From: Desulfobacula toluolica Tol2
GTDB taxonomy: Bacteria > Desulfobacterota > Desulfobacteria > Desulfobacterales > Desulfobacteraceae
Direction: 5' to 3'
Assembly: GCF_000307105.1 (NCBI RefSeq)
Contig: NC_018645.1
Location: forward strand, 2,244,578 to 2,308,577
DNA length: 64,000 bases
This document shows, one piece after another, positions 3,320-34,055 of this stretch. A model generated the notes under the pieces. That model was given only the letters and a program-made list of their open reading frames with translations, did no database searches and was not told where the DNA came from. The translations under genes and the position numbers were made by a program. How positions within the stretch are numbered: the first letter of the stretch is position 1; each line of letters opens with the position of its first letter.

Positions 3320-5365
3320 ATGATAAATATAAACGTACTGCTGGTGGATGATGAAGAAAGATTTCTTTTGACTACTCAAAAGTTGTTGGAAAAAAAAGGC
3401 TATACTGTCCAGACTGCCTCAAGCGGCGTGGAAGCGCTTGGGAAATTAAAAGAGCATAATATTCAGGTTGTTCTTTTGGATGTAAGAATGCCGGGTATGG
3501 ACGGGATCGCAATCTTAAAAAAAATTAAACGCGATTTTCCTTTGATTGAGGTTATTATGCTGACCGGCCATGGTACTGTGGAATCTGCTGTTGAAGGTGT
3601 GAAACTCGGTGCGGCAAATTATTTGATAAAGCCGGCTGATATTGATGATATTTCAGAAAAGATTCAAGAGGCCTTTGAAAAAAGACAAACCATCAGAGAA
3701 CAAACTCATGACAGAAAGGCATATTTTAAGAAACTTAAAGTTCGACTTGGAGTTGGGCTACTGGCTGCTTTTATGCTTCCCTATGCTGCATTTTTCGGTT
3801 ATTTCCAATTCCAGTTCAGCAAGACTTTGAAAGATACCGGCCGCTTGAATCTGGAAGCTCTTTCAAACAGCCAGAAAAATACCATTGATCTTTTTTTGCA
3901 GGAACGGGTGGCTAATATTTTTACCCTGTTTCATAGCGCTGATTTCAGTCTCAATCCTTCTCAAAATAAAATGCAAACTTACCTCCATGATTTAAGACAG
4001 GTTGATGATGCTTTTATTGATGTTGGGTTTTTGAATACACAGGGAATTCAAACCGGATATGCAGGATCATTTCCATACCTTAAGGATAAAAATTACAGCG
4101 ATGAAAGCTGGTTTAAAATTTTGTTGAATCAAAAACGCCATTATTACATCAGTAATATTTATCTTGGATTCAGAGAAAAACCACACTTTACAATTGCCGT
4201 CAGGCAGATAATTGACGGCAACCCTTATATTATGCGCTCCACACTTGATCCGGATAAATTTTATATGTTTTTAAGATCCATCAGCCGAGGAAAAGAGGTG
4301 GAATCCGCCTTGATCAATAAAGAGGGGCTGTTTCAAATTGTGGATCCTGACAGGGGTGAATTGCTTGGCAAAAGTGATTATATCCCACCTGAAAACATTG
4401 AATCCGGAGTAACGGAAATCAATAAAAACGGAGATTCAATACTTATAGGTTATGCATGGCTCAAAGAAACTCCCTGGGCACTGGTTGTCCGGCAGCCGTT
4501 GAAAATCGCTCATGCAGGGATGTATGAGAGCCGGCGTATGATGAGTATTATCCTTGTCATTATTTTTCTGGGGATTGCAGCAGGCATATGGGTTGCAAAC
4601 AGCAGGCTGATAACCCATGCTCAAGGTGCTGCTGAAAAAAGCGATGAACTGCGGCATCAATTGTTTCATGCATCAAAACTTGCTTCTGTCGGTGAACTGG
4701 CAACCGGCGTAGCCCATGAAATCAACAATCCTTTGGCCATTATCGTTGCCACAAGCGGTGTTATTCGTGATATGCTCAATCCTGAATTCAACCTTAACCC
4801 CAGTCCTGAAGAAATAGTCAAAGAGATTGATACAATTGATTCAGCGGCTTTCAGGGCAAGAACAATCACCAAACAGCTTCTTGCTTTTGGACGTAAAAAT
4901 GAACCCAAGCTTATTCCCTGTAACGTAAACCATATTCTCGATGACATCATGAGCGGGCTTAAAGAACGCGAGTTCAAGGTGGCGGATATTGAAATTATAC
5001 GGGAGTATGATCCTGGTCTGCCTGAAATCATGTTGGATCATGACCAGATTCGGCAGGTTTTCTTTAACCTTATCAATAATGCCGGGGATGCGATTTGCGG
5101 GCCGGGAAAAATTACGATTACAACGATTAGAAGTGACGAGGATATACATATTACGATTAAAGATACCGGCAAGGGAATGTCGCCCAGGCAACTGGGTGAG
5201 ATATTCAACCCTTTTTTCACCACAAAAGAGGTGGGGAAAGGAACCGGACTTGGCCTGAGTGTTTCACTGAACATCGTAGAATCACTTGGCGGAACAATTG
5301 ATGTTCAGTCTTTAGAGGGTGCCGGAAGTTCGTTTACAGTATCGTTTCCGATTCGCAGATTGTGA
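3320..5365 (+). CDS. Receiver-transmembrane-Cache-histidine kinase (receiver at the N-terminus)
   Basis: The 681-residue protein opens with a receiver domain (residues 4-120; acidic DD near 10-11, phospho-acceptor Asp54 in LLDVRMPG, Thr82, Lys104). Transmembrane helix 1 (about 143-163), an extracytoplasmic double-Cache-type sensor (about 165-405), helix 2 (about 408-428) and a HisKA domain follow, the latter with His466 in VAHEINNPLA. A HATPase domain ends the protein, with the N box near 580 and DTGKGMSP and GKGTGLGL loops. Hybrid kinases normally carry the receiver at the C-terminus; here it precedes the first membrane helix. No HAMP domain is obvious. The sensor resembles those of the kinases at 8556 and 22735. 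It is first in an operon with the receiver-transporter fusion (5410) and a lone receiver (7505), behind a sigma-54 promoter. Confidence 0.92.
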   Translation: MININVLLVDDEERFLLTTQKLLEKKGYTVQTASSGVEALGKLKEHNIQVVLLDVRMPGMDGIAILKKIKRDFPLIEVIMLTGHGTVESAVEGVKLGAANYLIKPADIDDISEKIQEAFEKRQTIREQTHDRKAYFKKLKVRLGVGLLAAFMLPYAAFFGYFQFQFSKTLKDTGRLNLEALSNSQKNTIDLFLQERVANIFTLFHSADFSLNPSQNKMQTYLHDLRQVDDAFIDVGFLNTQGIQTGYAGSFPYLKDKNYSDESWFKILLNQKRHYYISNIYLGFREKPHFTIAVRQIIDGNPYIMRSTLDPDKFYMFLRSISRGKEVESALINKEGLFQIVDPDRGELLGKSDYIPPENIESGVTEINKNGDSILIGYAWLKETPWALVVRQPLKIAHAGMYESRRMMSIILVIIFLGIAAGIWVANSRLITHAQGAAEKSDELRHQLFHASKLASVGELATGVAHEINNPLAIIVATSGVIRDMLNPEFNLNPSPEEIVKEIDTIDSAAFRARTITKQLLAFGRKNEPKLIPCNVNHILDDIMSGLKEREFKVADIEIIREYDPGLPEIMLDHDQIRQVFFNLINNAGDAICGPGKITITTIRSDEDIHITIKDTGKGMSPRQLGEIFNPFFTTKEVGKGTGLGLSVSLNIVESLGGTIDVQSLEGAGSSFTVSFPIRRL

Positions 5366-5409: not shown

Positions 5410-7485
5410 ATGGAAGAGCAAATAATAGCAAATGGCAATAATGAAAAAATCAAAGTGTTGTTGGTTGATGACGAAGACAGGTTTCGGGAGAATCTGGCAA
5501 AACAGCTGGAACACAGAGGATATGAGGTCCTTGATGCAAGCAATGGCGAAGACGCCATAAAAATTGTGCGTCACGAAAATCCACAAGTGGTAATTCTTGA
5601 CCAGAAAATGCCTGATATGGATGGTATTCAGACCTTAAAAGAGATAAAAAAATTGAGGCCTGAAGTCCAGGTCATAATGCATACAGGTCATGGCAGTATC
5701 GAATCGGCTCGGGTGACTGGAAAATTTGATGTGTTTTCTTATCTGGAAAAGCCTTGTGCCCTGGATGATCTGATTAGAGAGATAACAGCGGCCAGTCAGG
5801 AACGCGTTTATGCCATGGCCAGAAATGAAATTCCCGACGTACAGAGAACCAGCCTTAAAAACTGGCTGGTTGGTGTGCAAAATGCTCGCCCGGGAGTTAT
5901 TATCCTCGGGGTTATTATTTTTTTGACCATGGTGTTTATACCGGCACCAAAGCAGATGATAAATTTTTTATCGGCAAAGAAGACTGGTAATCTTACAGAA
6001 AGCATTGCTGGATATGCAGAATACCGCAAAATGGAAAAGGGTCAGACGATTGTAGAGTATTATGGTAAAAAAGCAAACTTGTACACCCAAACAAAAAACT
6101 GGGATGGGGCCATGGTTAAAACAGCTCCAGGTGTGGACAGGGTGGCTTTCAGGGCAAAGGTTATGATAGGAGTTCTTATGGTTGCCGCCCTTTTTTGGGC
6201 AACAGGTGCCGTGCCAATAGGTATTACGGCTCTTCTTGTGGGCGTATTGATGTATTTTTTCGGAATTTTTCCTCCCAGCATGGTGGCAAAAGCTTATGCA
6301 AAAGATTCGGTTATTTTTATCTTCGGTGTTCTTGCCTTTGCAGCTGCCATCAGTAAAACCGGTCTGGACAGGCGGATTGGTATTCTTTTGCTGGGAACCA
6401 GCACCTCCCTTCGCAAGTTTGCTCTTATTTTTGCACCTCTTCTGGCCGTAACAGCCTCTTTTCTTTCCGAGCATGCATTGGTTGCGTTTATTGCTCCTAT
6501 TTTAATGCTGGTATATATGGGAACAATCAGGACGGCGAACATAACCAAAGACAAGGGGCTGATTGTCATGCTGCTTTTAATGCTGACATTCTGTGCAAAT
6601 ATAGGCGGGCCTGGATCTCCTGCCGCAGGTGGTCGTAATGCCGTAATGCTTGGAATTTTCGGAGATTACGGCATCAGTATTTCGTTTGGTCAGTGGGTTA
6701 AAATGGGGCTTCCTTTTGTGCCGGTAATGGCGATTACCATTGCAGCATATTTTCTTATTGTTTTTAGAAATAAAGTCAAGGTCAAATCAGTCAATGTTGC
6801 TGCCGCAGTAAAACGTGAAGGGGAAAAAATCGGCAAGATGACACCTGATGAGTATAAAGCTGCAGGAGTTTTGATCCTGGTTATTATTTTATGGGTTACC
6901 TTTTCCAGCAAGGTGGGGATGGGCGGTCCGGTTATTTTATGCCTGGTTTTGTTGAATGTTCTGGGAATACTTCGCTGGAAAGATATCAACAGCATTCATT
7001 GGGATGTTGTGGCGCTTTATGCGGCCGCCAGTGCCATGGGCGTCGGTCTGGCCTCCACAGGTGCTGCGCTCTGGCTTGCAAACAGTTTTATCTCTATCCT
7101 CCCTGATAGCTTGACCTCTGGAATCGGACTGTGCATGTCCACAAGTTTTATTACCGGTATCCTCACCAATTTTATGAGTGACGGTGCCACTGTGGCTGCT
7201 GTAGGACCCATTACCGTGCCAATGGCAACCCTTTCCGGGACATCGCCGCTCATGGTTGGATTGGCAACTGCATTTGCATCTTCTTTTGCGCACATGCTGA
7301 TCATCGGCACACCGAATAATGCAATTGTTTACAGTATAGCCCGTGATCCTGAAACCGGAGAGCAGCTGGTAACAATGAAAGATTTTTTCATTCACGGTTC
7401 TGCGGTTTTTCTCCTCAGTATGGCTGTGTTGTGGATATGGGTATTTTTCGGGTATTGGAAATGGATGGGAATAGGCAGTATGTAA
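5410..7485 (+). CDS. Receiver domain fused to a DASS/SLC13-type transporter
   Basis: The 691-residue protein has a complete receiver domain (about residues 13-130: VLLVDDED, phospho-acceptor Asp64 in ILDQKMPDMDG, Thr92, Lys114) and a short linker. A polytopic permease starts at a helix near 161. An extracytoplasmic loop (about 182-250) precedes the main transporter core. The core has the DASS hallmarks NIGGPGSPAAGGRN (about 398-411) and IGTPNNAIVY (about 633-642). The usual sodium-site SNT motifs are replaced by SEHAL and SDGAT. There is one continuous frame with a single Shine-Dalgarno start (GGAAGGGCT before 5410) and no internal start with a ribosome site at the junction. It lies 45 bases after the sensor kinase and 20 before a lone receiver. 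The likely role is a di-/monocarboxylate or sulfate-type permease whose activity is tuned by phosphorylation; substrate and gating are inference. Confidence 0.92.
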   Translation: MEEQIIANGNNEKIKVLLVDDEDRFRENLAKQLEHRGYEVLDASNGEDAIKIVRHENPQVVILDQKMPDMDGIQTLKEIKKLRPEVQVIMHTGHGSIESARVTGKFDVFSYLEKPCALDDLIREITAASQERVYAMARNEIPDVQRTSLKNWLVGVQNARPGVIILGVIIFLTMVFIPAPKQMINFLSAKKTGNLTESIAGYAEYRKMEKGQTIVEYYGKKANLYTQTKNWDGAMVKTAPGVDRVAFRAKVMIGVLMVAALFWATGAVPIGITALLVGVLMYFFGIFPPSMVAKAYAKDSVIFIFGVLAFAAAISKTGLDRRIGILLLGTSTSLRKFALIFAPLLAVTASFLSEHALVAFIAPILMLVYMGTIRTANITKDKGLIVMLLLMLTFCANIGGPGSPAAGGRNAVMLGIFGDYGISISFGQWVKMGLPFVPVMAITIAAYFLIVFRNKVKVKSVNVAAAVKREGEKIGKMTPDEYKAAGVLILVIILWVTFSSKVGMGGPVILCLVLLNVLGILRWKDINSIHWDVVALYAAASAMGVGLASTGAALWLANSFISILPDSLTSGIGLCMSTSFITGILTNFMSDGATVAAVGPITVPMATLSGTSPLMVGLATAFASSFAHMLIIGTPNNAIVYSIARDPETGEQLVTMKDFFIHGSAVFLLSMAVLWIWVFFGYWKWMGIGSM

Positions 7486-7504: not shown

Positions 7505-7993
7505 ATGGAAAAAGAAAAAATAAATCTTTTAATCGTAGATGATGAAGACCAGTTTCTGGAATCAATCAAAAAAAGCCTGGAGTTGAGGGATTTTAATGTG
7601 ATTACAGCGAACAGGGGTGAAAAAGCTGTTGAGGCGGCTAAAAACAACACCATTGATATTGCGCTGGTTGATCTTAAAATGCCCGGAATATCAGGCGAAG
7701 AAACATTAAAACTGCTGAAGCAGGAACATAAATGGATGGAAGTTGTTATCCTGACCGGGCACGGGGCAATTGATTCTGCTGTGGAATGTACCAAGAGCGG
7801 CGCATATTCGTATCTTCAAAAGCCATGTGAGTTGGATCAACTTCTTGAAACCCTGCAGGATGCATATAAAAAAAAAGTAATGAACAGAAAACAGATTGAA
7901 GAAAAAAAGTTGAATGAACTTTTAAATATTTCCATCTCAAGCAGGCCCAGAGAGATTCTCCGCAAGCTAAGAGAAATTGACAAAGACGGCTGA
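7505..7993 (+). CDS. Stand-alone response-regulator receiver
   Basis: A 162-residue receiver with acidic pair DD near 12-13, phospho-acceptor Asp56 in LVDLKMPG, a TGHG loop (Thr about 83) and LQKPC lysine near 106. It has no DNA-binding or enzymatic output. After the receiver comes a charged helical tail ending in RPREILRKLREIDKDG. A similar PREIL tail closes the receiver at 10285, which also neighbours a DASS transporter. It is the third gene of the sigma-54 unit, 20 bases after the receiver-transporter fusion. It probably serves as a phosphate sink, shuttle or protein-docking partner for the kinase or permease; which one is not visible. Confidence 0.9.
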   Translation: MEKEKINLLIVDDEDQFLESIKKSLELRDFNVITANRGEKAVEAAKNNTIDIALVDLKMPGISGEETLKLLKQEHKWMEVVILTGHGAIDSAVECTKSGAYSYLQKPCELDQLLETLQDAYKKKVMNRKQIEEKKLNELLNISISSRPREILRKLREIDKDG

Positions 7994-8555: not shown

Positions 8556-10265
8556 ATGGATAAGAACAGTCAAGATCGTAAAGAAAAAGGGATGCGGGTT
8601 AAACGAACCATTTTAACAAATATGATTATTGTTCCATTTATCCCTTTTTTACTGGCAATCGGAGTAAGTTTCTATTTTTTTACTACTGCACTTGAAAACA
8701 AGACCGTCAACACTTTGAAAAGGATCGTACAAGATCATTGTGGTATGATCGAGTCTTTTCTGATAGAGCGCAATTCAGATCTTGAACTTATCACAAACAC
8801 CTATAGTTTTGAACAAATCAACTCGACCCAGACCATTAATGCCATATTTGAAAATTTAAAAGATCGATCCAGCGCTTTTGTTGATCTGGGGCTTTTTGAT
8901 TCTCAGGGCATCCACATAAGATATTCCGGCAAATATCCGTTGAAAGGAAAAGTATACAAAGATGAGGTGTGGTTTAAAAAAGTAATGCAGACCGGATACT
9001 ATATCAGCGATGTTTTTTTGGGGTATAGAAATGTCCCTCATTTTATAATTGCTGTGCGGCAGGGCAGCGGGGATAAAACCTGGGTACTTCGGGCAACCAT
9101 TGATACTTTGTTTTTTGACACCCTGGTATCAAAAGTGCAAATCGGAAGAACAGGAGAAGCTTATATTTTAAATAAAAATGGAATTGCACAAACCCTTAGA
9201 CGGTCTAATGGCACCCGTGTTTTGAACATGGATCCGGACTATTCCGGTTTCCCAAAATTGCAAAACACAACTCATACCTTTATTAAAGCCGATTCGGCAA
9301 AAAATAAATATGTGTATGCAACCACCTGGCTTAAAAATGGAGAGTGGCTCCTGGTGGTACGCCAGGAAAAAAAGGATGCCTATAAATATTTATATTCCGC
9401 TTTGTATATCAATATATTGATCATGGTTCTCGGCGGGGCGATTATTGTCGTCATTGCTTTGTATACAACTGAACGCATCCTCAAAAGGATTGAGCAGTTG
9501 GGGATGGAAAAGAAAAGTCTTGGAAATCAGTTGATCAGGGCTACTCAATTAGCTGAAATCGGTGAGATGGCAGCCGGGTTTGCCCATGAAATCAACAATC
9601 CACTGCAAATTATTAAAAGTGAATACTCTTTGATTGAAACCCTTTTTGATGAAGTGTTCGGTAATGAAAAAATCCCCAAAAACGAAGAGATAAAGGATAT
9701 TGAGGAGTCACTGGACCAGATCAAACTCCAGGTGAACCGATGCTCTGAAATTACTCATGCCATTTTAAAGTTCGGGCGGGAAAATGAAACAAAAGAGCAA
9801 TTGCTGCATCCTTATATTATTATTCCTGAAATTATCAAGATGATAGAAAAAAAAGCAATGGTCAGTGGTATCAAGATTGTTAAAGATATTTCAGAAGATG
9901 TTCCAGGGTTTATGGGTGATCCATCCCAGTTTCAGCAGGTGATGCTTAATCTTTTAAATAACGCAATGGATGCAATCGAAGAAAGGCATGGTTCATCAGG
10001 GGGACAATTGAGTGTCGCGGTTTGTAAGAAAAATGAAAATCAGGTTGAAATAACAATTACTGACAACGGAAGTGGTATCAGTCCTGAAAATATTGATAAA
10101 ATATTTTCTCCTTTTTTTACCACAAAGCCTGTGGGCAAAGGGACCGGGCTTGGGCTTTCCGTTTGTTACGGGATCATAGAAAGTTTTAATGGAACTATGC
10201 AAGTAAAAAGCAAACAAAATATCGGCACGACCTTTGTTATTCATCTGCCGGTTAAACATTACTAA
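8556..10265 (+). CDS. Cache-domain sensor histidine kinase
   Basis: The 569-residue kinase has helix 1 (about 20-42), a periplasmic double-Cache-type domain (about 45-283), helix 2 (about 287-307), HisKA with His344 in FAHEINNPLQ, and HATPase (N box near 475, DNGSGISP and GKGTGLGL loops). The sensor shares the sequence ISDVFLGYRNVPHFIIAVRQ-type core with the kinases at 3320 and 22735, so they probably bind related ligands. Unlike 3320 there is no fused receiver; a separate one follows 20 bases later (10285). AGAGGG lies before the ATG. The gene is the first of the second transport module and is preceded by a sigma-54 promoter. Confidence 0.92.
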   Translation: MDKNSQDRKEKGMRVKRTILTNMIIVPFIPFLLAIGVSFYFFTTALENKTVNTLKRIVQDHCGMIESFLIERNSDLELITNTYSFEQINSTQTINAIFENLKDRSSAFVDLGLFDSQGIHIRYSGKYPLKGKVYKDEVWFKKVMQTGYYISDVFLGYRNVPHFIIAVRQGSGDKTWVLRATIDTLFFDTLVSKVQIGRTGEAYILNKNGIAQTLRRSNGTRVLNMDPDYSGFPKLQNTTHTFIKADSAKNKYVYATTWLKNGEWLLVVRQEKKDAYKYLYSALYINILIMVLGGAIIVVIALYTTERILKRIEQLGMEKKSLGNQLIRATQLAEIGEMAAGFAHEINNPLQIIKSEYSLIETLFDEVFGNEKIPKNEEIKDIEESLDQIKLQVNRCSEITHAILKFGRENETKEQLLHPYIIIPEIIKMIEKKAMVSGIKIVKDISEDVPGFMGDPSQFQQVMLNLLNNAMDAIEERHGSSGGQLSVAVCKKNENQVEITITDNGSGISPENIDKIFSPFFTTKPVGKGTGLGLSVCYGIIESFNGTMQVKSKQNIGTTFVIHLPVKHY

Positions 10266-10284
10266 AAAGGAGGGAGCTTAAGCT

Positions 10285-10737
10285 ATGGAAAAAATGAAAC
10301 TTATGTTGGTTGATGATGAGGCTCGTTATCTTCAAACAACCCGAAAACTGATCGAAAAAAAAGGGTATGAAACATTAATTGCTCAAAGCGGGAAGGAGGC
10401 CCTTGAGCATCTTAAAACAAAAAATGTTCATGTGGTCATTCTTGATGTCAAAATGCCGGGGATGGATGGAAACGAGACGTTAAAGGCGATCAAAGCTATG
10501 TATCCTCTGGTGGAGGTCATTATGCTGACAGGACATGCCACTGTGGATTCGGCCATTGACGGTCTTAAATCCGGTGCTTGTGATTATCTCATGAAACCTG
10601 CCGATATTGATGAAATTATGGAAAAAGCCATAGCTGCATTTGAAAAAAGGCAAAGACTTGAGGAAAAAATCAGGACGGCTCAAACAAAAAAATATATGAG
10701 ATCCCCTCGCGAAATTCTCAAAGATGATGATGAATAA
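10285..10737 (+). CDS. Stand-alone response-regulator receiver
   Basis: A 150-residue receiver: LMLVDDEA, phospho-acceptor Asp54 in VILDVKMPG, MLTGHA loop and LMKPAD lysine near 104. It is closest by eye to the N-terminal receiver of the 3320 kinase, which suggests fusion or fission between the two modules. A charged linker ends in MRSPREILKDDDE, recalling the tail of the receiver at 7505. It lies between a Cache kinase and a DASS permease in one operon, with a GGAGG ribosome site. No output domain is present, so it probably acts by protein contact or phosphotransfer. Confidence 0.9.
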   Translation: MEKMKLMLVDDEARYLQTTRKLIEKKGYETLIAQSGKEALEHLKTKNVHVVILDVKMPGMDGNETLKAIKAMYPLVEVIMLTGHATVDSAIDGLKSGACDYLMKPADIDEIMEKAIAAFEKRQRLEEKIRTAQTKKYMRSPREILKDDDE

Positions 10738-10762
10738 AATTTTGTATACTGGAGGTTGATAA

Positions 10763-12610
10763 ATGAAAAAAGAAAAGAAAGTCACTGGATACGATAAATA
10801 TATAGACTGGAAAATTTTTTGCGTCCCGGTCATACTTTTATTTTTGGTTTTATTGATGCCGACCCCAAATGGCATGAAAGATGTTGGTACTGAATTTAAA
10901 GTTGGTCCCAAAGCCGTTGTGAACTTTATTACCACAGAACTGTTTGATAAAACCAGTTCCGATGCAGAACAATGGCAATTGCTTACCGCCAAAATGATGG
11001 AACAGAACATGCGTTTAGGAGCTTTGCAAAAAGAACGCTTTCTGAAACGAAATATCAAATGGTGCAACAAATACAAGATGGATGCCAGCCAGAAAAATTT
11101 TGATAAGGCCCATAGTTATATAAAAGACAATGTGCCTGAAAAAGAGTTCATGGCAACTATGGAAAATGCACTGAAACTCAGAAAAGAAGGGCTGACATAT
11201 GAAAATTTGACAGGAAAGGATAAAGCAGCTGCCGATAAGGGGGCCTGGCATATAAAAGTTGCTGTTGCCATGGGTTTGTTTGTTGTGGCCTGTTTTTTAA
11301 CCGAGTGTATTCCTCTTCCGGCAGTTGCCTTTTGTATCGGTCTGATACTTGTGTTCACCGGTGTGGTTTCAAGACAGGAAGTGGCCATGCTGTACTGGAG
11401 TGATGCCTGCTGGTTTATCATGGGCAGTCTTATGTTTGCTGCGGCATTTGTTAAGACAGGTGTGGATAAACGGGTCTGTATGATGATGTTCAAAAAACTG
11501 GCCGTTCCCAATACCAAATGGATTACCCTGATTTTCTTTGTCATTATTGCACCTCTGGCCGCATTTATATCGGATCATGCCCTGGCTGCCATGTTTCTTC
11601 CAATTGGGATGCTGTTATACCAGAACAGCCTGACCAACGAGGTGCCCGAGGACAAGGAACTTGCAAAGCTTTTGATGATCAGTATTGCCATGGCCTGCAA
11701 TATAGGTGGCCCTGGAGCGCCTTCCGGCGGTGCCAGGAATGTTATTATGATGACTTATTTAACGGATATGTTTGGGGTTGATATCGGTTATTTTCAGTGG
11801 GTTACTTATTGTTTTCCGTTTATAATTGTTATGATTCCTGTTACCTGGTTTGTCACAAATCTTCGTTTCAGGCCTAAAATCGTTTCTCTGGCACCTGCAA
11901 TGGATCAATTAAGAACAGAAATCGATAAAATGGGATCATGGAATTCCAAGCAGATATGGGCCCTGATTATATTTGTTATCATGGTGTTTGGATGGTTTAC
12001 GGAAAAAGTGTTTTTTAACATGGGGATTTATCCCATCCGCCTTGGCATTGGTGTTATTGCCGTAGCAGGTGCAGTGGCCTATATTCTTACCGGAGTTGTC
12101 AACTGGCGAGATTACCAGGACAAAGTGGATTGGGGGGTTGTCTGGTTGTATGCAGGCGCCATCATATTTGGAAGGACCCTGGATAATACCGGTGCAGCTT
12201 ACTGGCTGGCTCAATCCGTCATAGACTTTTTAGCACAATTTGGTATGGAAGCCGGTCTTCCCTTAATGATGGTCAGTAACGGATTGACCTCGATTCTTAC
12301 AAACCTTATGGCAGACGGTCCTGCCGCAGCTTCAGTAGGTCCGATTGCCCTTAACATGGCTGGAATGGTTCATCCCGGAACCACTTATCTGCCGTTCATG
12401 GCCATGGCCACAGCAATTGCCTCATCATTTGCCTATTGCCTGATTATCGGCACGCCTCCCAATGCAATTGTTTACGCCAGCGGATATCTTGAGCCCAAGG
12501 ATTATCTCAGGGTTGGCATTCCCATATTTTTCCTGGCCAATGTTGTATTGCTTTTTATGACAGGTGTTTACTGGTCATTCAGGGGATTTGGCACAATGCC
12601 CGGATTTTAA
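10763..12610 (+). CDS. DASS/SLC13-type anion transporter with large extracytoplasmic insertion
   Basis: The 615-residue permease has an N-terminal helix (about 17-34), a soluble helical insertion (about 37-165, rich in charged residues) and a polytopic core. DASS signatures are NIGGPGAPSGGARN (about 313-326) and IGTPPNAIVY (about 565-574). In place of the SNT sodium motifs it has SDHAL and ADGPA, like the permease of the 5410 fusion, so the two form a subgroup. The insertion makes it longer than typical SLC13 bacterial proteins (about 460-500). It sits 25 bases after a receiver and is followed by small membrane proteins. Carboxylate import is the family expectation; the substrate is not determined. 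Confidence 0.88.
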   Translation: MKKEKKVTGYDKYIDWKIFCVPVILLFLVLLMPTPNGMKDVGTEFKVGPKAVVNFITTELFDKTSSDAEQWQLLTAKMMEQNMRLGALQKERFLKRNIKWCNKYKMDASQKNFDKAHSYIKDNVPEKEFMATMENALKLRKEGLTYENLTGKDKAAADKGAWHIKVAVAMGLFVVACFLTECIPLPAVAFCIGLILVFTGVVSRQEVAMLYWSDACWFIMGSLMFAAAFVKTGVDKRVCMMMFKKLAVPNTKWITLIFFVIIAPLAAFISDHALAAMFLPIGMLLYQNSLTNEVPEDKELAKLLMISIAMACNIGGPGAPSGGARNVIMMTYLTDMFGVDIGYFQWVTYCFPFIIVMIPVTWFVTNLRFRPKIVSLAPAMDQLRTEIDKMGSWNSKQIWALIIFVIMVFGWFTEKVFFNMGIYPIRLGIGVIAVAGAVAYILTGVVNWRDYQDKVDWGVVWLYAGAIIFGRTLDNTGAAYWLAQSVIDFLAQFGMEAGLPLMMVSNGLTSILTNLMADGPAAASVGPIALNMAGMVHPGTTYLPFMAMATAIASSFAYCLIIGTPPNAIVYASGYLEPKDYLRVGIPIFFLANVVLLFMTGVYWSFRGFGTMPGF

Positions 12611-13444: not shown

Positions 13445-14347
13445 ATGACAAAAAAAATAAAAGTGTTAATGGTTGATGATGAAAAAAGATTCAGGGAGAC
13501 AACCAAAAAAATATTGATGAAAAAAGGTTTTGAAACAATTCTTGCAGAAAGTGGCGAGGAAGCTCTTGAAAAAATATCAGAAGCCCCTGATGTGGTTATT
13601 TTGGATATTAAAATGCCGGGAATTGACGGCCACGAGGCCCTTGCAAGAATAAAAAAAATCAATCCTGATCTGCCGGTTATCATGCTGACCGGCCACGGGG
13701 GCATACCTTCAGCAAGAGAAGCCCTGGTTGAAGGGGCGTTTGATTATCTGAGCAAACCCTGTGATATTGATTTGCTGGCGGAAAAGATAAAGGAAGCCTG
13801 TCAACTGCCCGGTGAGTTATCCGACAAAGAAGAAAGAAAGGTTACATCTGTTATGATTCCCATTACAGAGTATACCACTATAAATGAAAATAAAACCATA
13901 TTTGAGGCACTAAACGAACTTAAAAAATCCTTTATTACAAAAATGGCAACAAACCGGCTCATGGAAACCGGTCACCGGTCTATTCTTGTGAAAGGGGATG
14001 ATAACGAGGTAAACGGAATTTTAACCATCAGAGATCTTTTGGAAATGATCATGCCGGCCTATCTTACCGCACCCAAGCCATCCCTGGCAGACAGTATTGA
14101 ATATTCTCCAATGTTTTGGAAAGGAATGTTCAGTAAGGGGATCATTGCGATAAAAGACAAATGCATAAGTGATGTCATGTCTCCTTCTCCTGTTTCCATT
14201 GAGAGCAATTCCAACCTGATGGAGGCTGCATATCTCATGATTTATAAAAATGAAAGACGCCTTCTTGTGACATTGTCAGGCAAAACAGTTGGTGTGATAA
14301 GAGAACAGGATTTGTTTTTTGAAATGGAAAAAATTTTAAATTCATAG
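13445..14347 (+). CDS. Receiver-CBS pair fusion protein
   Basis: The 300-residue protein joins a receiver (about 5-120: MVDDEK, Asp54 in ILDIKMPG, MLTGHGG, LSKPCD) to a CBS-domain pair (about 135-297, with SVMIPITEYTTINE and SDVMSPSPVSIES as the two CBS openings). CBS pairs bind adenine nucleotides such as AMP, ATP or S-adenosylmethionine. The CBS part resembles the separate CBS protein at 31931-32485 (VMIPLSDYATVSE), which also accompanies a DASS transporter. It is the last gene of module 2, with AAGGAG before the ATG. A receiver linked to an adenylate sensor could integrate kinase input with energy status; this role is inference. Confidence 0.85.
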   Translation: MTKKIKVLMVDDEKRFRETTKKILMKKGFETILAESGEEALEKISEAPDVVILDIKMPGIDGHEALARIKKINPDLPVIMLTGHGGIPSAREALVEGAFDYLSKPCDIDLLAEKIKEACQLPGELSDKEERKVTSVMIPITEYTTINENKTIFEALNELKKSFITKMATNRLMETGHRSILVKGDDNEVNGILTIRDLLEMIMPAYLTAPKPSLADSIEYSPMFWKGMFSKGIIAIKDKCISDVMSPSPVSIESNSNLMEAAYLMIYKNERRLLVTLSGKTVGVIREQDLFFEMEKILNS

Positions 14348-14768: not shown

Positions 14769-15455
14769 ATGATGTTGATAAAAGAATGGATGAGCAGATC
14801 CGTAATTACTATAAACTATAACGAATCTTTGAAAAATGCGGCCAAATTATTTCAGACAAAGGTGATTTCCATGCTTCCTGTTTTAAAAAACGGAGAGTTG
14901 ATTGGTATCGTAACTGACGGTGATATTAAAGAAGCCACCCCTTCTGAATCACCGGCTCTGGATAAGTTTGAAATTTTTTCATTAATGGATTCCGTTAGAA
15001 TTGAGTCTGTCATGACCAGCCCTGTTGTCACAATTCATTCTGATCATACGGTTGATGAGGCAGCTGGAATAATGTTGAGCAAAGGAATATCAGGAGTGCC
15101 GGTTGTTGATTCTGAAGGTTCGCTGGAGGGTGTTCTTACGAAAAGCGATATTTTTCGATGCTTTGTGTCTTTTACCGGAGTTTCAAACAATGGACAGGTG
15201 TTTGCATTTAATTTGCCGGACAAACCCGGCATTATAAAAAATTTAACAGATATGATAATGAACAGTGGCGGAAGGCTGTGCAGCATCATGACCTCTTACG
15301 ATGATATAGAAGAAGGACTTCGAAAAGTATTTTTTCATACCTTTGACATTGATCCCGACAATTTTGACAAGCTGGTTGAACAATTTAACAGGGCAGGGGA
15401 ACTGCTTTATGTAGCTGATCTGTCAAGGGGATTTCGGAAAATAATTAGGAGATAA
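14769..15455 (+). CDS. CBS pair-ACT domain protein (AcuB-like), tandem copy 1
   Basis: The 228-residue protein has two CBS motifs (about 1-140; WMSRSVITI and SVMTSPVVTIHSDHTV openings) followed by an ACT-like domain starting at about 149 (FAFNLPDKPGIIKNLTDMI). This is the layout of AcuB-type proteins. CBS domains bind adenylates and ACT domains often bind amino acids or other small effectors. Two ATGs are adjacent; the second (14772) has better spacing from GGAG and matches the start of the tandem paralogue. It is directly downstream of the best sigma-54 promoter and leads a unit with the paralogue, a universal stress protein and an acyl-CoA synthetase-acetyltransferase, which suggests acetate/acyl-CoA metabolism control. 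Confidence 0.85.
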   Translation: MMLIKEWMSRSVITINYNESLKNAAKLFQTKVISMLPVLKNGELIGIVTDGDIKEATPSESPALDKFEIFSLMDSVRIESVMTSPVVTIHSDHTVDEAAGIMLSKGISGVPVVDSEGSLEGVLTKSDIFRCFVSFTGVSNNGQVFAFNLPDKPGIIKNLTDMIMNSGGRLCSIMTSYDDIEEGLRKVFFHTFDIDPDNFDKLVEQFNRAGELLYVADLSRGFRKIIRR

Positions 15456-15467
15456 AGGAGGTGTAAT

Positions 15468-16151
15468 GTGGTTATACAAGAATGGATGAGCAGATCCGTC
15501 ATTACCATAGAATATAACGAGTCTTTGAATGATGCTGCCAAATTGTTTCGGACAAGGGTGATTTCCATTCTTCCTGTTTTGAAAAATGGAGAGCTTTCCG
15601 GTATTGTCACTGATGGTGATATAAAAAAAGCCACACCTTCTGATGCCACGACCCTGGATAAATTTGAGATTGTATCTTTATTGGATTCCATTAGTGTTGA
15701 GTCGGTCATGTCCAAGCCTGCTGTTACTATTCATTCTGATCATACGGTTGACGAAGCTGCCGGAATCATGCTGAGCAAAGGGATATCAGGAATGCCGGTG
15801 GTTGATAAGGCAGGTTTGCTGGAGGGTATCCTTACAAAAAGCGATGTTTTTAGATGTTTTGTGTCTTTTACAGGTGTTTCAAACAAAGGGCAGGTGTTTG
15901 CATTTAATTTGCCGGACAAACCCGGCATTATAAAAAATTTAACGGATATGATTCGGAACAGTGGTGGCAGGTTGTGCAGTATCATGACCTCTTATGATGA
16001 TATGGAAGACGGTTTTAGAAAGGTGTTTTTTCATACATTTGACATTGATTCCGACAATTTTGACAGCTTGGTTGAAAAGTTTCATGGAATAGGGGAACTG
16101 CTTTATGTGGCTGATTTGTCAAGGGGATTAAGAAAAATTATTAAAAGATAA
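15468..16151 (+). CDS. CBS pair-ACT domain protein (AcuB-like), tandem copy 2
   Basis: The 227-residue protein is a close paralogue of the preceding gene: identical stretches such as QVFAFNLPDKPGIIKNLTDM and long runs of conserved DNA point to a fairly recent duplication. The start is GTG at 15468, placed 5 bases after a strong AAGGAGGTG; an overlapping ATG at 15466 is in another frame and stops being coding. Domain order is the same (CBS pair, then ACT). Only 12 bases separate it from copy 1, so the two are translated from one message and could form heteromers. Confidence 0.85.
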   Translation: MVIQEWMSRSVITIEYNESLNDAAKLFRTRVISILPVLKNGELSGIVTDGDIKKATPSDATTLDKFEIVSLLDSISVESVMSKPAVTIHSDHTVDEAAGIMLSKGISGMPVVDKAGLLEGILTKSDVFRCFVSFTGVSNKGQVFAFNLPDKPGIIKNLTDMIRNSGGRLCSIMTSYDDMEDGFRKVFFHTFDIDSDNFDSLVEKFHGIGELLYVADLSRGLRKIIKR

Positions 16152-25415: not shown

Positions 25416-26996
25416 ATGTTTTATAAGACTAATGGATTTAAACTCTGTGTTGCGGTGTTGATAGGTGTTATTGTTTTTCTTCTTCCAAGGCCGGAAGGAA
25501 CACAGTTTAAAATTTCAGGTGATACCGGCCGAATCCTTTTACAGAATGTGACACAACATTTTACTGTTATGCCTGAAGGAAAAATTCCAACAGAATCATA
25601 TGTTTTAAAGGCAAACTCACCAGGTTCTCTTGAGGGAAGAGCTAAATTTTTAGAACAAAAAGCAAAGACTTTGAATCTGGATACCGTTACTGTTGATTAT
25701 GTTAACGGGCTTTCACCAAAGGCTAAAAGATTTTTATCGATCCTTGCCGTTCTGGTCATATTGTTTGTAATTGAGCCGATTCCACTTGAAATAACTGCGG
25801 TTTGTATAGGGGTTTTTCTGGTCATCATGCAGATTACAGATGTAAAAACTGCGTGGGCTCCTTATATGCATCCGGTAGTTATTTTTATCATGTGCTGCCT
25901 GATTTTTGCAATTGCACTTGATAAAGCCGGTTTAACCAAACGTCTGGGATATTTTATCATCAAAAAAGCAGGAAACAGTATTACCCGGTTTACCTTTATT
26001 ATTGCCATAGGACTTGGACTTGCTTCATCGTTCATGCATGATGCCGCAGCCTGTGCCATTGGAATCGTGACCATGCTGCCGCTGATGCGCGCTGTTGGTA
26101 TAGAACCCCATACCAATACAGCCAAGTTTATGATGCTGTCATTGCCATTTGCCTGCTCTTGCGGCGGTATGGGAACTCTTGTGGGCGGAGGGCGATGTAT
26201 GGTTTCCGCAGCTTTTTTAAAAGAATTTACAGGTATTGAGATCACTTTTTTTGACTGGATGCTATATTGCATGCCTGCAGCGTTTATTACAGTGCCGATT
26301 GCCGTATGCATTGTGTATGTGGTTTTCAGGCCTGACCCAAAATTCAAGCTGCCTGATTTTGATGAAGATTTGGGTCCAATGACGTCACTTGAGAAAAAAA
26401 CAGTTGCCATTATAGCCTGTTCGTTTTTACTCTGGTTGACCAAGGGTCTTCACGGAATGGATTATTCCGTAACCGGTATGCTGGGCGTGGCTTGCCTGGT
26501 ATTGTTCAAAGCATTAAAATGGCGGGATATCAATGACAACCTGGAATGGGGAACGGCATTGTTTATTTTCGGCGGCGGAATTTCACTGGGCCTGGCCATG
26601 GGGTATTCCGGGGCTGCAGATTACTTTGCCCATTTGTTTTTTCCTTTGATTCAGGGAAAAGGCTGGCTGGTTCTTTTTGTTGGCGTAGGTGTTTTCGGGG
26701 CTTTGGTAACAAACGCAATGGCTAATGTTGCTGCGGCCGCGCTGATTCTTCCCATTGTCATTCCCATGGCACAGCTTGAAGGTGTGGACCCGACGATCCT
26801 GTCCCTTTGTCTGGGAACAGCCACTTCTTTTGCCATGCTACTTGTTATCGGATGTCCCCCCAATGCCATTGCATACAGTTACCGGTATTTTAAATCATCC
26901 GATCTGACTAAAGTAGGGTTGGTTGCCACACCTGTTTTATTGACGGTTTTAGTTGTGGTTGCAGCCGTGTGGTGGAGAATCCTGGGGTTAATTTAG
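25416..26996 (+). CDS. DASS/SLC13-type anion transporter
   Basis: The 526-residue permease has helix 1 (about 6-22), an extracytoplasmic loop of about 80 residues, then the polytopic core. The DASS signature is altered at the first substrate loop (SCGGMGTLVGGGRC, about 247-260) and conventional at the second (IGCPPNAIAY, about 482-491). The SNT sodium motifs are replaced by MHDAA and ANVAA. It differs from the 5410/10763 pair and is closer in style to the permease at 32583. It follows two lone receivers and precedes a soluble receiver-kinase (27034), with an AAGGAGAAG site. Substrate unknown; a carboxylate is the family expectation. Confidence 0.87.
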   Translation: MFYKTNGFKLCVAVLIGVIVFLLPRPEGTQFKISGDTGRILLQNVTQHFTVMPEGKIPTESYVLKANSPGSLEGRAKFLEQKAKTLNLDTVTVDYVNGLSPKAKRFLSILAVLVILFVIEPIPLEITAVCIGVFLVIMQITDVKTAWAPYMHPVVIFIMCCLIFAIALDKAGLTKRLGYFIIKKAGNSITRFTFIIAIGLGLASSFMHDAAACAIGIVTMLPLMRAVGIEPHTNTAKFMMLSLPFACSCGGMGTLVGGGRCMVSAAFLKEFTGIEITFFDWMLYCMPAAFITVPIAVCIVYVVFRPDPKFKLPDFDEDLGPMTSLEKKTVAIIACSFLLWLTKGLHGMDYSVTGMLGVACLVLFKALKWRDINDNLEWGTALFIFGGGISLGLAMGYSGAADYFAHLFFPLIQGKGWLVLFVGVGVFGALVTNAMANVAAAALILPIVIPMAQLEGVDPTILSLCLGTATSFAMLLVIGCPPNAIAYSYRYFKSSDLTKVGLVATPVLLTVLVVVAAVWWRILGLI

Positions 26997-32582: not shown

Positions 32583-34055
32583 TTATTTTACCAGTATCGG
32601 CATACCCATAATCGGCCATACAACTGCAACTGCAACTGCAATTACAATCATTAGCATTATACTGGCAGGAATTCCAAAGAGGAAAAATTCTCCTGTTGTA
32701 AACTGTTTTGAATCATAGGCAATGGCATTGGGTGCCGCACCAACAAGCAACAGAAACGGCATACCTGCGGTGACAAGAGCGGCAAAAAGGATAACTTCAG
32801 GTGCCACACCCAGATAGGGTGCAATAACCAAAGCAACCGGCAGGGAAATGGCAATGGCTGCAACATTCATGATAAAATTGGTCATGATCATGACAAAAAA
32901 TGCAATACTCATGATAAAGACAAAATAGTTTGATTTCTGGAACATGGTCAGCCAGTTGATGGCCAGCCATTCTGCGGCACCTGTTTCCCAAAGGCAGAAC
33001 CCAATACTCATGGCACCGCCGAACAGCAGGATAATATTCCAGGGAATGGATTCAAGATCCTTGATATCCAGTATACGCAATACAAAAAAGAGAATTGTTG
33101 AAGTCAAAATGATGGCGGTTTTGTCAACCGGTTTTAAAAACGGGACAAATTGTTTCACAGACATAACAAAAATACAGGCAAAAATGATTATTGCAGCAAT
33201 GATTTCATTTTTTGTGATTTTTCCCATTGCAACACTCAGTTTTTTTGCTTTTTCGCGAAGCCCCGGAATAGTTGCTCTTTCAGGCTTGAAAAAAATCATG
33301 AAAAATCCCCACAAAAGAAAGGTCATGGCCCATCCAACAGGGAACATATAAAAGGTAAGTTCAAAAAAAGAGACGTCTCTTCCGATAATATCCTTGAAAA
33401 AACCAAGAGCAACTGCACCCCTTGCCGCACCCAGAAGGGTTACGATACTTCCGGCACCGGCAACAAAAGCCATTCCCATGAACAAGCCTTTACCGAATTT
33501 GGTGGGAGTTTCATCATCCGTATACATACTGTAAATAGTCATTAAAAGCGGATACATGGTTGCAGCCACGGCAGTATGGGCCATGATATGGGTCAGGGCA
33601 GCGGTTACAACAAAACACCCCAGATAAATCATGCTGGTTTTTTCCCCCACAACAGCCAGCATCTTATAGGCCAGGCGTTTTGTCAGACCTGTTTTGGTGA
33701 AGACCATGCCAATGACAAGCGAAGCAAAAATAAAAAGGACTGACGGGGTCATAAAATCCTTAAATGCCGAATTTGCAGGCCGGATCATAAACAGAACCTG
33801 CAGCACACCGATGGTAAGACTTGTAACACCAATGGGAACCACTTCAAACACCCACCAGGTACCCCCTAAAAGAAACACGGCCAGGGCACCCTTGGCCTCT
33901 TTGCTCAACACAAAATGTTTTCCTGTAGGATCAATGGCATCCGGCCATGGCGGTGCAAAATTAACAACAAAAAAAAGTGTAAGACCAATTAAAAGAAAAA
34001 GGACACGTTTCCAGTCAAAATTCGAACCTGTTAAAGCTGTTGCATCAGTACTCAT
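32583..34055 (-). CDS. DASS/SLC13-type anion transporter
   Basis: The 490-residue permease has the usual SLC13 length with no large insertion: an N-terminal hydrophobic helix (LFLLIGLTLFFVVNFAPPWP), the core, a first substrate loop GAGSIVTLLGAARG (about 200-213) and a second VGAAPNAIAY (about 439-448). The sodium-site motifs read AHTAV and MNVAA instead of SNT. It is the only DASS gene in the window without a receiver or kinase beside it, and is paired with a CBS protein downstream. A TAGGAGAA-type ribosome site precedes the ATG at 34055. Confidence 0.88.
   Translation of the reverse strand: MSTDATALTGSNFDWKRVLFLLIGLTLFFVVNFAPPWPDAIDPTGKHFVLSKEAKGALAVFLLGGTWWVFEVVPIGVTSLTIGVLQVLFMIRPANSAFKDFMTPSVLFIFASLVIGMVFTKTGLTKRLAYKMLAVVGEKTSMIYLGCFVVTAALTHIMAHTAVAATMYPLLMTIYSMYTDDETPTKFGKGLFMGMAFVAGAGSIVTLLGAARGAVALGFFKDIIGRDVSFFELTFYMFPVGWAMTFLLWGFFMIFFKPERATIPGLREKAKKLSVAMGKITKNEIIAAIIIFACIFVMSVKQFVPFLKPVDKTAIILTSTILFFVLRILDIKDLESIPWNIILLFGGAMSIGFCLWETGAAEWLAINWLTMFQKSNYFVFIMSIAFFVMIMTNFIMNVAAIAISLPVALVIAPYLGVAPEVILFAALVTAGMPFLLLVGAAPNAIAYDSKQFTTGEFFLFGIPASIMLMIVIAVAVAVVWPIMGMPILVK

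Follow-up and report, generated by a model that had tools for sequence, protein, structure and literature searches.

The gene described here lies in a 64,000-nucleotide stretch of the Desulfobacula toluolica Tol2 genome (contig NC_018645.1, positions 2,244,578 to 2,308,577 of the forward strand; this whole stretch is the window below, and positions are counted from its first letter). At 5410–7485 it joins, in one open reading frame (ORF), an N-terminal receiver domain of the response-regulator type to a permease with the fold of the DASS/SLC13 carriers (Table 1). The frame runs from ATG to TAA over 691 codons with zero internal stops, and a stretch reading aaggaaggg stands ahead of its ATG. 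The gene starts 44 bases past the end of a sensor kinase gene with REC, dCache, HisKA and HATPase domains (3320–5365), of which dCache_1 scores 41.6 bits, slightly below its cut-off of 45. An initial annotation made from the letters of the window had described one uninterrupted receiver–permease frame immediately behind a Cache kinase, and both parts of that description are borne out.

Table 1 Features of the fused gene and its surroundings in the window
Feature	Position	Strand	Basis or remark
REC-DASS fusion gene	5410..7485	+	691 aa, one ORF; Pfam Response_reg and Na_sulph_symp
Receiver domain, about residues 15–126	5452..5787	+	Pfam 16–125; Foldseek match 1zy2
Asp64, predicted phospho-acceptor	5599..5601	+	D in 93/93 fused homologues spanning both ends
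Thr92, receiver switch residue	5683..5685	+	T in 93/93 fused homologues
Lys114, receiver active-site lysine	5749..5751	+	K in 93/93 fused homologues
Linker, residues 127–160	5788..5889	+	Short helix 149–154; conserved W152, G155, R160
First membrane helix, residues 161–176	5890..5937	+	Helix in model
DASS-type transporter core, residues 242–687	6133..7470	+	Pfam 240–687; Foldseek NaS1, NaCT, VcINDY
SEHA (353–356) replacing first SNT motif	6466..6477	+	VcINDY alignment; SEHA in 91/93 fused homologues
SDGA (590–593) replacing second SNT motif	7177..7188	+	VcINDY alignment; SDGA in 93/93 fused homologues
REC-dCache-HisKA-HATPase sensor kinase, likely phospho-donor	3320..5365	+	Pfam
Stand-alone receiver, 162 aa, probable paralogue of fused receiver	7505..7993	+	Pfam; 19 bases past fusion gene
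dCache histidine kinase, neighbouring unfused system	8556..10265	+	Pfam
Stand-alone receiver directly upstream of unfused DASS gene	10285..10737	+	Pfam
Unfused DASS paralogue, 615 aa, SDHA and ADGP motifs	10763..12610	+	Above PF00939 and TIGR00785 cut-offs

Two domains in one protein

Pfam places Response_reg (PF00072) at residues 16–125 (E value of 7.6e-28, 97.3 bits against a cut-off of 30.2) and Na_sulph_symp (PF00939) at residues 240–687 (E value of 1.8e-37, 129.9 bits against a cut-off of 27). Na_sulph_symp and CitMHS are the sole transporter families matched, which leaves the protein outside the SLC5/SSS family; Pfam finds neither HisKA nor HATPase in it, nor any additional domain beyond receiver and transporter. 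Among 58 aligned fusion proteins (the window protein and those of 57 of the 80 loci described below), PF00072 matches all 58 and PF00939 matches 57 at E values of at most 1e-3. An AlphaFold2 model computed from this alignment (predicted local distance difference test score (pLDDT) of 85.0, predicted template modelling score of 0.77) combines a receiver fold with a DASS fold according to its Foldseek matches. Human NaS1, NaCT and VcINDY lead the ranking and ranks 1–39 are all SLC13/INDY, Pho90 or plant chloroplast dicarboxylate carriers, with ArsB following at rank 40, which places the permease in the DASS fold; the phosphorylated NtrC1 receiver 1zy2 matches the N-terminal part at rank 41. A phmmer comparison with 5uld, a VcINDY variant, gives 4.6e-26.

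Recurrence of the fused gene

We recovered 106 fused ORFs, of which 94 are distinct in their last 600 residues and 93 of these span both ends. The search of named genomes gave 178 relatives, the best 80 of which were kept, with the other 98 outside the analysis; receiver and permease share one ORF in all 80 kept loci. The initial annotation had suggested searching other genomes for the same domain pair, and had named as possible flaws a stop or frameshift between receiver and permease and homologues that are always two proteins. The 94 distinct fused ORFs supply the former, and, together with the 80 fused loci among the best 80 of 178 relatives, they exclude both flaws. Single stops were flagged in five fused genes (L014, L016, L019, L022 and L023); read-through or a programmed stop was rejected there, and the stops are taken as terminal because the ORF scan shows uninterrupted fused ORFs at these places (L043, L045, L047, L050 and L051).

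Record titles among the best 80 of 178 relatives name at least eight phyla, and nearly all of the records are metagenome-assembled genomes (MAGs). The titles include Desulfobacula, other Desulfobacteraceae, Zixiibacteriota, Acidobacteriota, Pirellulaceae (Planctomycetes), Gemmatimonadota, Calditrichaeota, Krumholzibacteriia, Fibrobacteria and Abyssobacteria. A Desulfobacula MAG supplies the best named relative (88%). Firmer records come from a strain of Desulfatitalea alkaliphila (L099) and from a 5.5 Mb Gemmatimonadota chromosome, itself a MAG (L149). Some MAG labels must be wrong: the fusion loci of records labelled Phycisphaerales (L121) and Desulfovibrionales (L126) are near-identical, with end branches of 0.009 and 0.0071, which is likely to reflect a binning error in one of the two. 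The fusion is present twice, on separate contigs, in one Pirellulaceae MAG (L087 and L100).

Sampling within the lineage gave lower bounds. With the transporter part as the query, at least 25 of 291 genomes of the order carry the fused gene (up to four candidates scored per genome), and two extra matches at 72–83% identity are cut by contig ends (G286 and G034). The same query matched at least 13 of 395 genomes of the phylum, three of them with a fused gene (G000, G105 and G480; up to three candidates scored per genome). The whole fusion as the query matched at least 4 of 395, one of them the split arrangement in G435 described below (two candidates scored per genome), a poor count because receivers crowd the first look. 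The fused gene occurs in two of the seven sampled genomes that are either the window's own or of the same genus, and in 3 of 200 sampled genomes of the phylum of L149, two of which were already among the named relatives.

We regard an inert remnant, or an artefact of assembly or gene calling, as an extremely improbable explanation of the fusion. We found no point in support of this explanation, the upstream context being uncounted for the 19 of 94 ORFs with no more than 2.3 kb upstream; the 94 distinct fused ORFs, the named strain and the chromosome record among them, all speak against it, as do the invariant phosphorylation site (93 of 93) and the single clade that the fused domains form in each of two trees.

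Operon partners

Upstream context was counted for the 75 of 94 ORFs with more than 2.3 kb upstream (the other 19 were left out), and downstream context for the 86 whose downstream sequence exceeds 700 bases. Of the 75 loci, 70 have a same-strand histidine kinase no more than 1.5 kb upstream; most of these kinases have a Cache domain and a few lack one, and the phospho-acceptor histidine is present in all 68 complete systems (Cache kinase, fusion and downstream receiver). In 33 of the 75 loci the nearest upstream gene encodes a CBS-domain protein. On the other side, a stand-alone receiver is the nearest downstream gene in 77 of 86 loci; the remaining nine have a CBS gene (four), a Cache kinase (two), a REC-CBS gene (one) or none (two). 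In one of the last two (L149) a receiver ORF overlaps the fusion beyond the allowed cut-off. The downstream receivers keep the Asp, Thr and Lys residues in 82 of 82 cases, and Pfam finds no output domain in that of the window (7505–7993), a gene that the initial annotation had left unmentioned.

Where the sequence extends 5 kb to either side of the fusion (40 loci), 30 loci have no NtrC-type regulator within that distance. No flanking family recurs in more than two of the 75 proteins scanned (75 of 173 listed), and no hint to a substrate was obtained from the neighbours. Because 30 of 40 loci are free of NtrC-type regulators and flanking families do not recur, the transporter is the most evident output of these systems.

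Receiver and linker

The window protein has the key residues of a receiver (Asp20, Asp21, Glu22, Asp64, Thr92 and Lys114), as the initial annotation had read from it in claiming a complete receiver. Beyond the invariant residues in Table 1, D20 is kept in 92, D21 in 91 and Y111 in 87 of the 93 fused homologues. The link between receiver and permease is also more than chance, because D64, T92 and K114 are kept in 93 of 93. DASS carriers have a cytoplasmic N terminus, and the same orientation here would place the receiver where a kinase could reach it.

A conserved linker had been proposed as a further check alongside the phosphorylation residues, and it is found: the spacing between K114 and P161, the residue with which the first membrane helix opens, is 47 in 89 of 93 fused homologues, 48 in three and 49 in one, and W152, G155, R160 and P161 are each at least 90% conserved. 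Such constancy suggests mechanical coupling rather than a loose tether. A shortened alpha-4 helix in the fused receiver was considered and rejected, since T92 and K114 are 22 residues apart in all but one of the 93 fused ORFs (18 in the exception); the downstream receiver of the window has the same 22-residue span (T84 to K106).

Compared with the downstream receivers, the fused receiver has nine conserved positions that are variable or different downstream (18, 26, 63, 78, 83, 84, 87, 89 and 104), including E78, R83 and P84. In the model, position 26 falls in the first helix, which in receivers of other systems touches the kinase. Positions 78–84 comprise part of helix 3 and the loop behind it, and are a candidate contact to the permease.

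These features bear on the explanation that the fused receiver works as a phosphate sink or as a phosphorylation-dependent tag for dimerization, placement or turnover, and that the transport cycle itself is unaltered. Two receivers beside one kinase is a known layout of phosphate sinks, and DASS carriers form dimers. The single-domain receiver EpsW, when phosphorylated, favours the dimer of a membrane enzyme, EpsZ, in the published account (PMC12802240). A sink needs no tether of near-constant length, however, and the conservation of E78, R83 and P84 in the fused receiver alone suggests a dedicated partner surface; we consider this explanation quite improbable.

Changed binding-site motifs

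In VcINDY, each of two hairpin tips has one Ser-Asn-Thr motif that contacts the carboxylate of the substrate and contributes to Na+ binding, as described in the accessible part of PMC9098524. The initial annotation had credited the permease with both DASS substrate-loop motifs. Part of this stands: the conserved loops GGPGSPAAGGRN and GTPNNA are present, and GGRN is kept in 93 of 93 fused homologues. The two Ser-Asn-Thr tips themselves are replaced, with S-E-H (353–355) and S-D-G (590–592) aligned to them. The protein also misses the cut-off of TIGR00785, the dass subfamily (172.4 bits against 198.6). Because of these replacements and this missed cut-off, the permease is best labelled a divergent DASS-fold carrier with a putative transport function, and because the binding-site motifs have changed, neither the substrate nor the coupling ion can be transferred to it from known DASS carriers.

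In the genome of D. toluolica (one contig of 5,197,905 bases), PF00939 has eight matches, of which the window contains four. Four DASS-fold paralogues lie within 30 kb (5410–7485, 10763–12610, 25416–26996 and, on the reverse strand, 32583–34055), and none has canonical SNT motifs; their clade motifs are SEHA and SDGA, SDHA and ADGP, HDAA and ANVA, and AHTA and MNVA, respectively. The binding sites of the whole two-component-associated DASS group, judged from these motifs, appear to have been rebuilt.

Origin of the fusion

A quick tree was built from 77 DASS domains, 36 of them unfused and 41 fused (chosen from the 94). Its fused domains form one clade (SH-aLRT (Shimodaira–Hasegawa-like approximate likelihood ratio test) support of 98) that adjoins an unfused clade of about 540–610 amino acids. 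A second quick tree, of 145 receivers taken from 35 chosen loci, likewise unites its 25 fused receivers in one clade (support of 99), beside the downstream stand-alone receivers (support of 90); 22 of 23 downstream receivers fall in that sister group and one (L098) elsewhere. Because of this sister position, fused and stand-alone receivers are likely to be duplicates of one another. When other receivers were included, a 59-row tree kept the fused clade (99) and left its sister relation to the downstream receivers unresolved. The single-clade pattern in both domains fits one fusion, and what became widespread is, as these trees indicate, one covalent receiver–DASS fusion.

Many unfused relatives of the sister clade start to align near the first membrane helix, with residue 20 or so of P0002 corresponding to residue 159 of the fusion. 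This clade carries the same motifs (SEHA in 33 and SDGA in 31 of 34 sequences), so that a change of the site before the fusion is the simplest order of events.

Receiver genes also stand beside unfused DASS genes. In the sister clade, 19 of 32 loci have a receiver-containing neighbour (seven of them REC-CBS) and 25 of 32 a kinase neighbour. The corresponding counts are 19 and 3 of 23 in an unfused 617-amino-acid clade, 8 and 6 of 9 in a 526-amino-acid clade, and 0 and 3 of 6 in a 490-amino-acid clade. In the clade of the unfused paralogue at 10763–12610, the upstream neighbour is a receiver gene at 15 of 23 loci. The pairing of receiver and transporter therefore exists without fusion too, and the neighbouring receivers of the sister and 617-amino-acid clades belong to several lineages. 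In G435 (L173:2817–4901, reverse strand), a receiver gene stands 18 bases ahead of an unfused DASS gene and in frame with it, and the whole-fusion query crossed a TAG and a TAA. Fission of a fused gene was rejected here: because the receiver belongs to another lineage, outside the fused clade, the arrangement is one of neighbourhood and not a broken fusion.

A model for control of transport

The initial annotation had suggested that the fusion would allow phosphorylation-gated uptake. We likewise hypothesize that the protein is a response regulator with a secondary transporter as its output, and think it probable, on the sequence evidence, that transport is controlled through phosphorylation of the fused receiver by the kinase. 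An extracellular signal would bind to the dCache domain of the upstream kinase, which would autophosphorylate on its conserved histidine. The phosphoryl group would pass to the conserved Asp64 on the cytoplasmic side, and the resulting change in the receiver would be relayed through the near-constant linker and its short helix into the first membrane helix, altering the rate, direction or affinity of an elevator-type carrier. The paralogous stand-alone receiver of the same operon would probably be a second target of the kinase, acting either as a sink for phosphate or as the fused receiver's partner, and the CBS-domain protein, judged by its domain, may supply an energy-state input.

We prefer this path from kinase to Asp64 to carrier because the site is conserved, the linker is nearly constant, the genes share an operon, most loci show no other evident output, and receiver and kinase correlate in a test of evolutionary distances. 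In that test the partial correlation between fused receiver and kinase core is 0.34 given the transporter distances, a value reached in none of 500 permutations; downstream receiver and kinase core give 0.14, and the two receivers 0.08.

Several points weigh against the model. The binding-site motifs depart from the ones in functional DASS carriers, which makes it uncertain that the protein transports at all. By the cut-offs used, the upstream kinase is missing from 5 of 75 loci and the downstream stand-alone receiver from 9 of 86; an NtrC-type AAA gene lies within 5 kb in 10 of 40 loci, and six long receiver ORFs lie near such loci, one or more of which may be other regulators. The fused gene is patchy in its occurrence (at least 25 of 291 genomes of the order and at least 3 of 395 of the phylum). 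How receiver and permease touch cannot be read from the structural model, in which blocks of residues 131–160 have pLDDT values of 63–72. The test of distances is a crude one: a fixed distance was assigned to a few pairs of rows that do not overlap, and Cache, too, correlates at 0.15 with the fused receiver, 0.19 with the downstream receiver and 0.53 with the kinase core.

The signal could also run the other way. The permease, working or binding-only, would then be a co-sensor, its substrate occupancy or transport flux changing the kinase or phosphatase activity; the fused receiver would be its handle on the kinase and the stand-alone receiver the true output. The changed binding-site motifs would suit a poorly transporting binder, and the stand-alone receiver is equally conserved (Asp, Thr and Lys in 82 of 82). 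Precedents are found in transporter–kinase fusions such as CbrA (PMC13022988) and in the C4-dicarboxylate carrier DctA, a transporter co-sensor that cooperates with the two-component system of DcuS (PMC4280142, in the part available). Docking alone, however, needs no Asp or Lys in the fused receiver, yet both are invariant in 93 of 93; the stand-alone receiver of the window has no output domain detectable by Pfam, and no transcription-factor family turns up in more than 2 of the 75 flanking proteins scanned. DctA differs from the fusion in that the transporter is a co-regulator of the kinase. No receiver is, to our knowledge, part of the transporter in DctA–DcuS. We hold a reversed signal to be unlikely and keep to the path from kinase to carrier.

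Other genes in the window

The unfused system that follows the fusion operon (8556–12610) is listed in Table 1. Beyond it, 13445–14347 encodes a REC domain fused to a CBS-domain pair, an architecture that is also found beside unfused DASS genes of other genomes. Two tandem, closely similar CBS proteins, read from their translations, are encoded at 14769–15455 and 15468–16151. After them come what we take to be a universal stress protein and then a large ADP-forming acyl-CoA synthetase-like protein with an acetyltransferase end. On the reverse strand ahead of the kinase gene, a small secreted-looking protein with a Cache domain adjoins a transporter gene of the GPR1/FUN34/YaaH family (1664–2143 and 2201–2770; Pfam).

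Relation to known systems

Transporters joined to two-component domains have been described before. The SLC5-STAC kinases CbrA and CrbS (MxtR) hold a transporter and a two-component domain in one polypeptide, as the fusion does (PMC13022988 and PMC7918813, as far as these sources are available). In the CbrA type, the SLC5 transporter is joined to the kinase through STAC as an input, and the regulator CbrB is a transcription factor, whereas the fusion here has a DASS-fold transporter with an N-terminal receiver; MxtR has a C-terminal REC, but within a hybrid kinase (PMC7918813). An ammonium transporter of Candidatus Kuenenia stuttgartiensis is likewise fused to a two-component signalling domain, but this is a kinase and not a receiver, its transporter has the ammonium transporter fold, and the protein is described as a sensor or transducer in the accessible part of PMC5764959. 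With the DASS/SLC13 carriers VcINDY, NaCT and NaS1 the fusion shares fold and overall sequence; it differs from them by its N-terminal receiver, by SEH and SDG in place of the SNT motifs and by a score below the TIGR00785 cut-off. EpsW acting on EpsZ is a published case of a receiver that, as proposed here, works directly and post-translationally on a membrane protein, but the two are separate proteins and the target is an enzyme, not a transporter (PMC12802240, in the part available).

A 2025 review of two-component systems names DNA- or RNA-binding, enzymatic and protein-binding outputs in the part available to us, and the words 'transporter' and 'permease' are absent from its main text (PMC12471899). 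We found no published description of a receiver–DASS protein among the top-ranked matches, which is weak proof as subscription papers and architecture databases were outside the scope of the search; a phrase search of the literature for membrane-bound response regulators gave nothing. Transporter–kinase fusions and a receiver acting on a membrane enzyme are already known, and what would be new is a response regulator with a transporter-type output.

A wider reading, on which we find the balance even, is that these proteins represent a further class of two-component output, in which the activity of a secondary transporter is set directly by aspartyl phosphorylation. They would belong to an old and widely shared module of Cache kinase, often a CBS protein, receiver–transporter and second receiver, with a rebuilt acidic DASS site and therefore an unrecognized substrate or coupling ion.

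If the proposed control is true, uptake would be adjustable without new transcription, and the post-translational gating of a carrier could be tested within a single polypeptide by means of the on and off variants known for receivers. The recurrence of the fused genes beside a sensor kinase in many bacterial groups suggests that an uptake protein may be under direct control by the cell and not under control through gene expression. As the module occurs in sulfate reducers and in several mostly uncultured phyla, its substrate may matter for their physiology.

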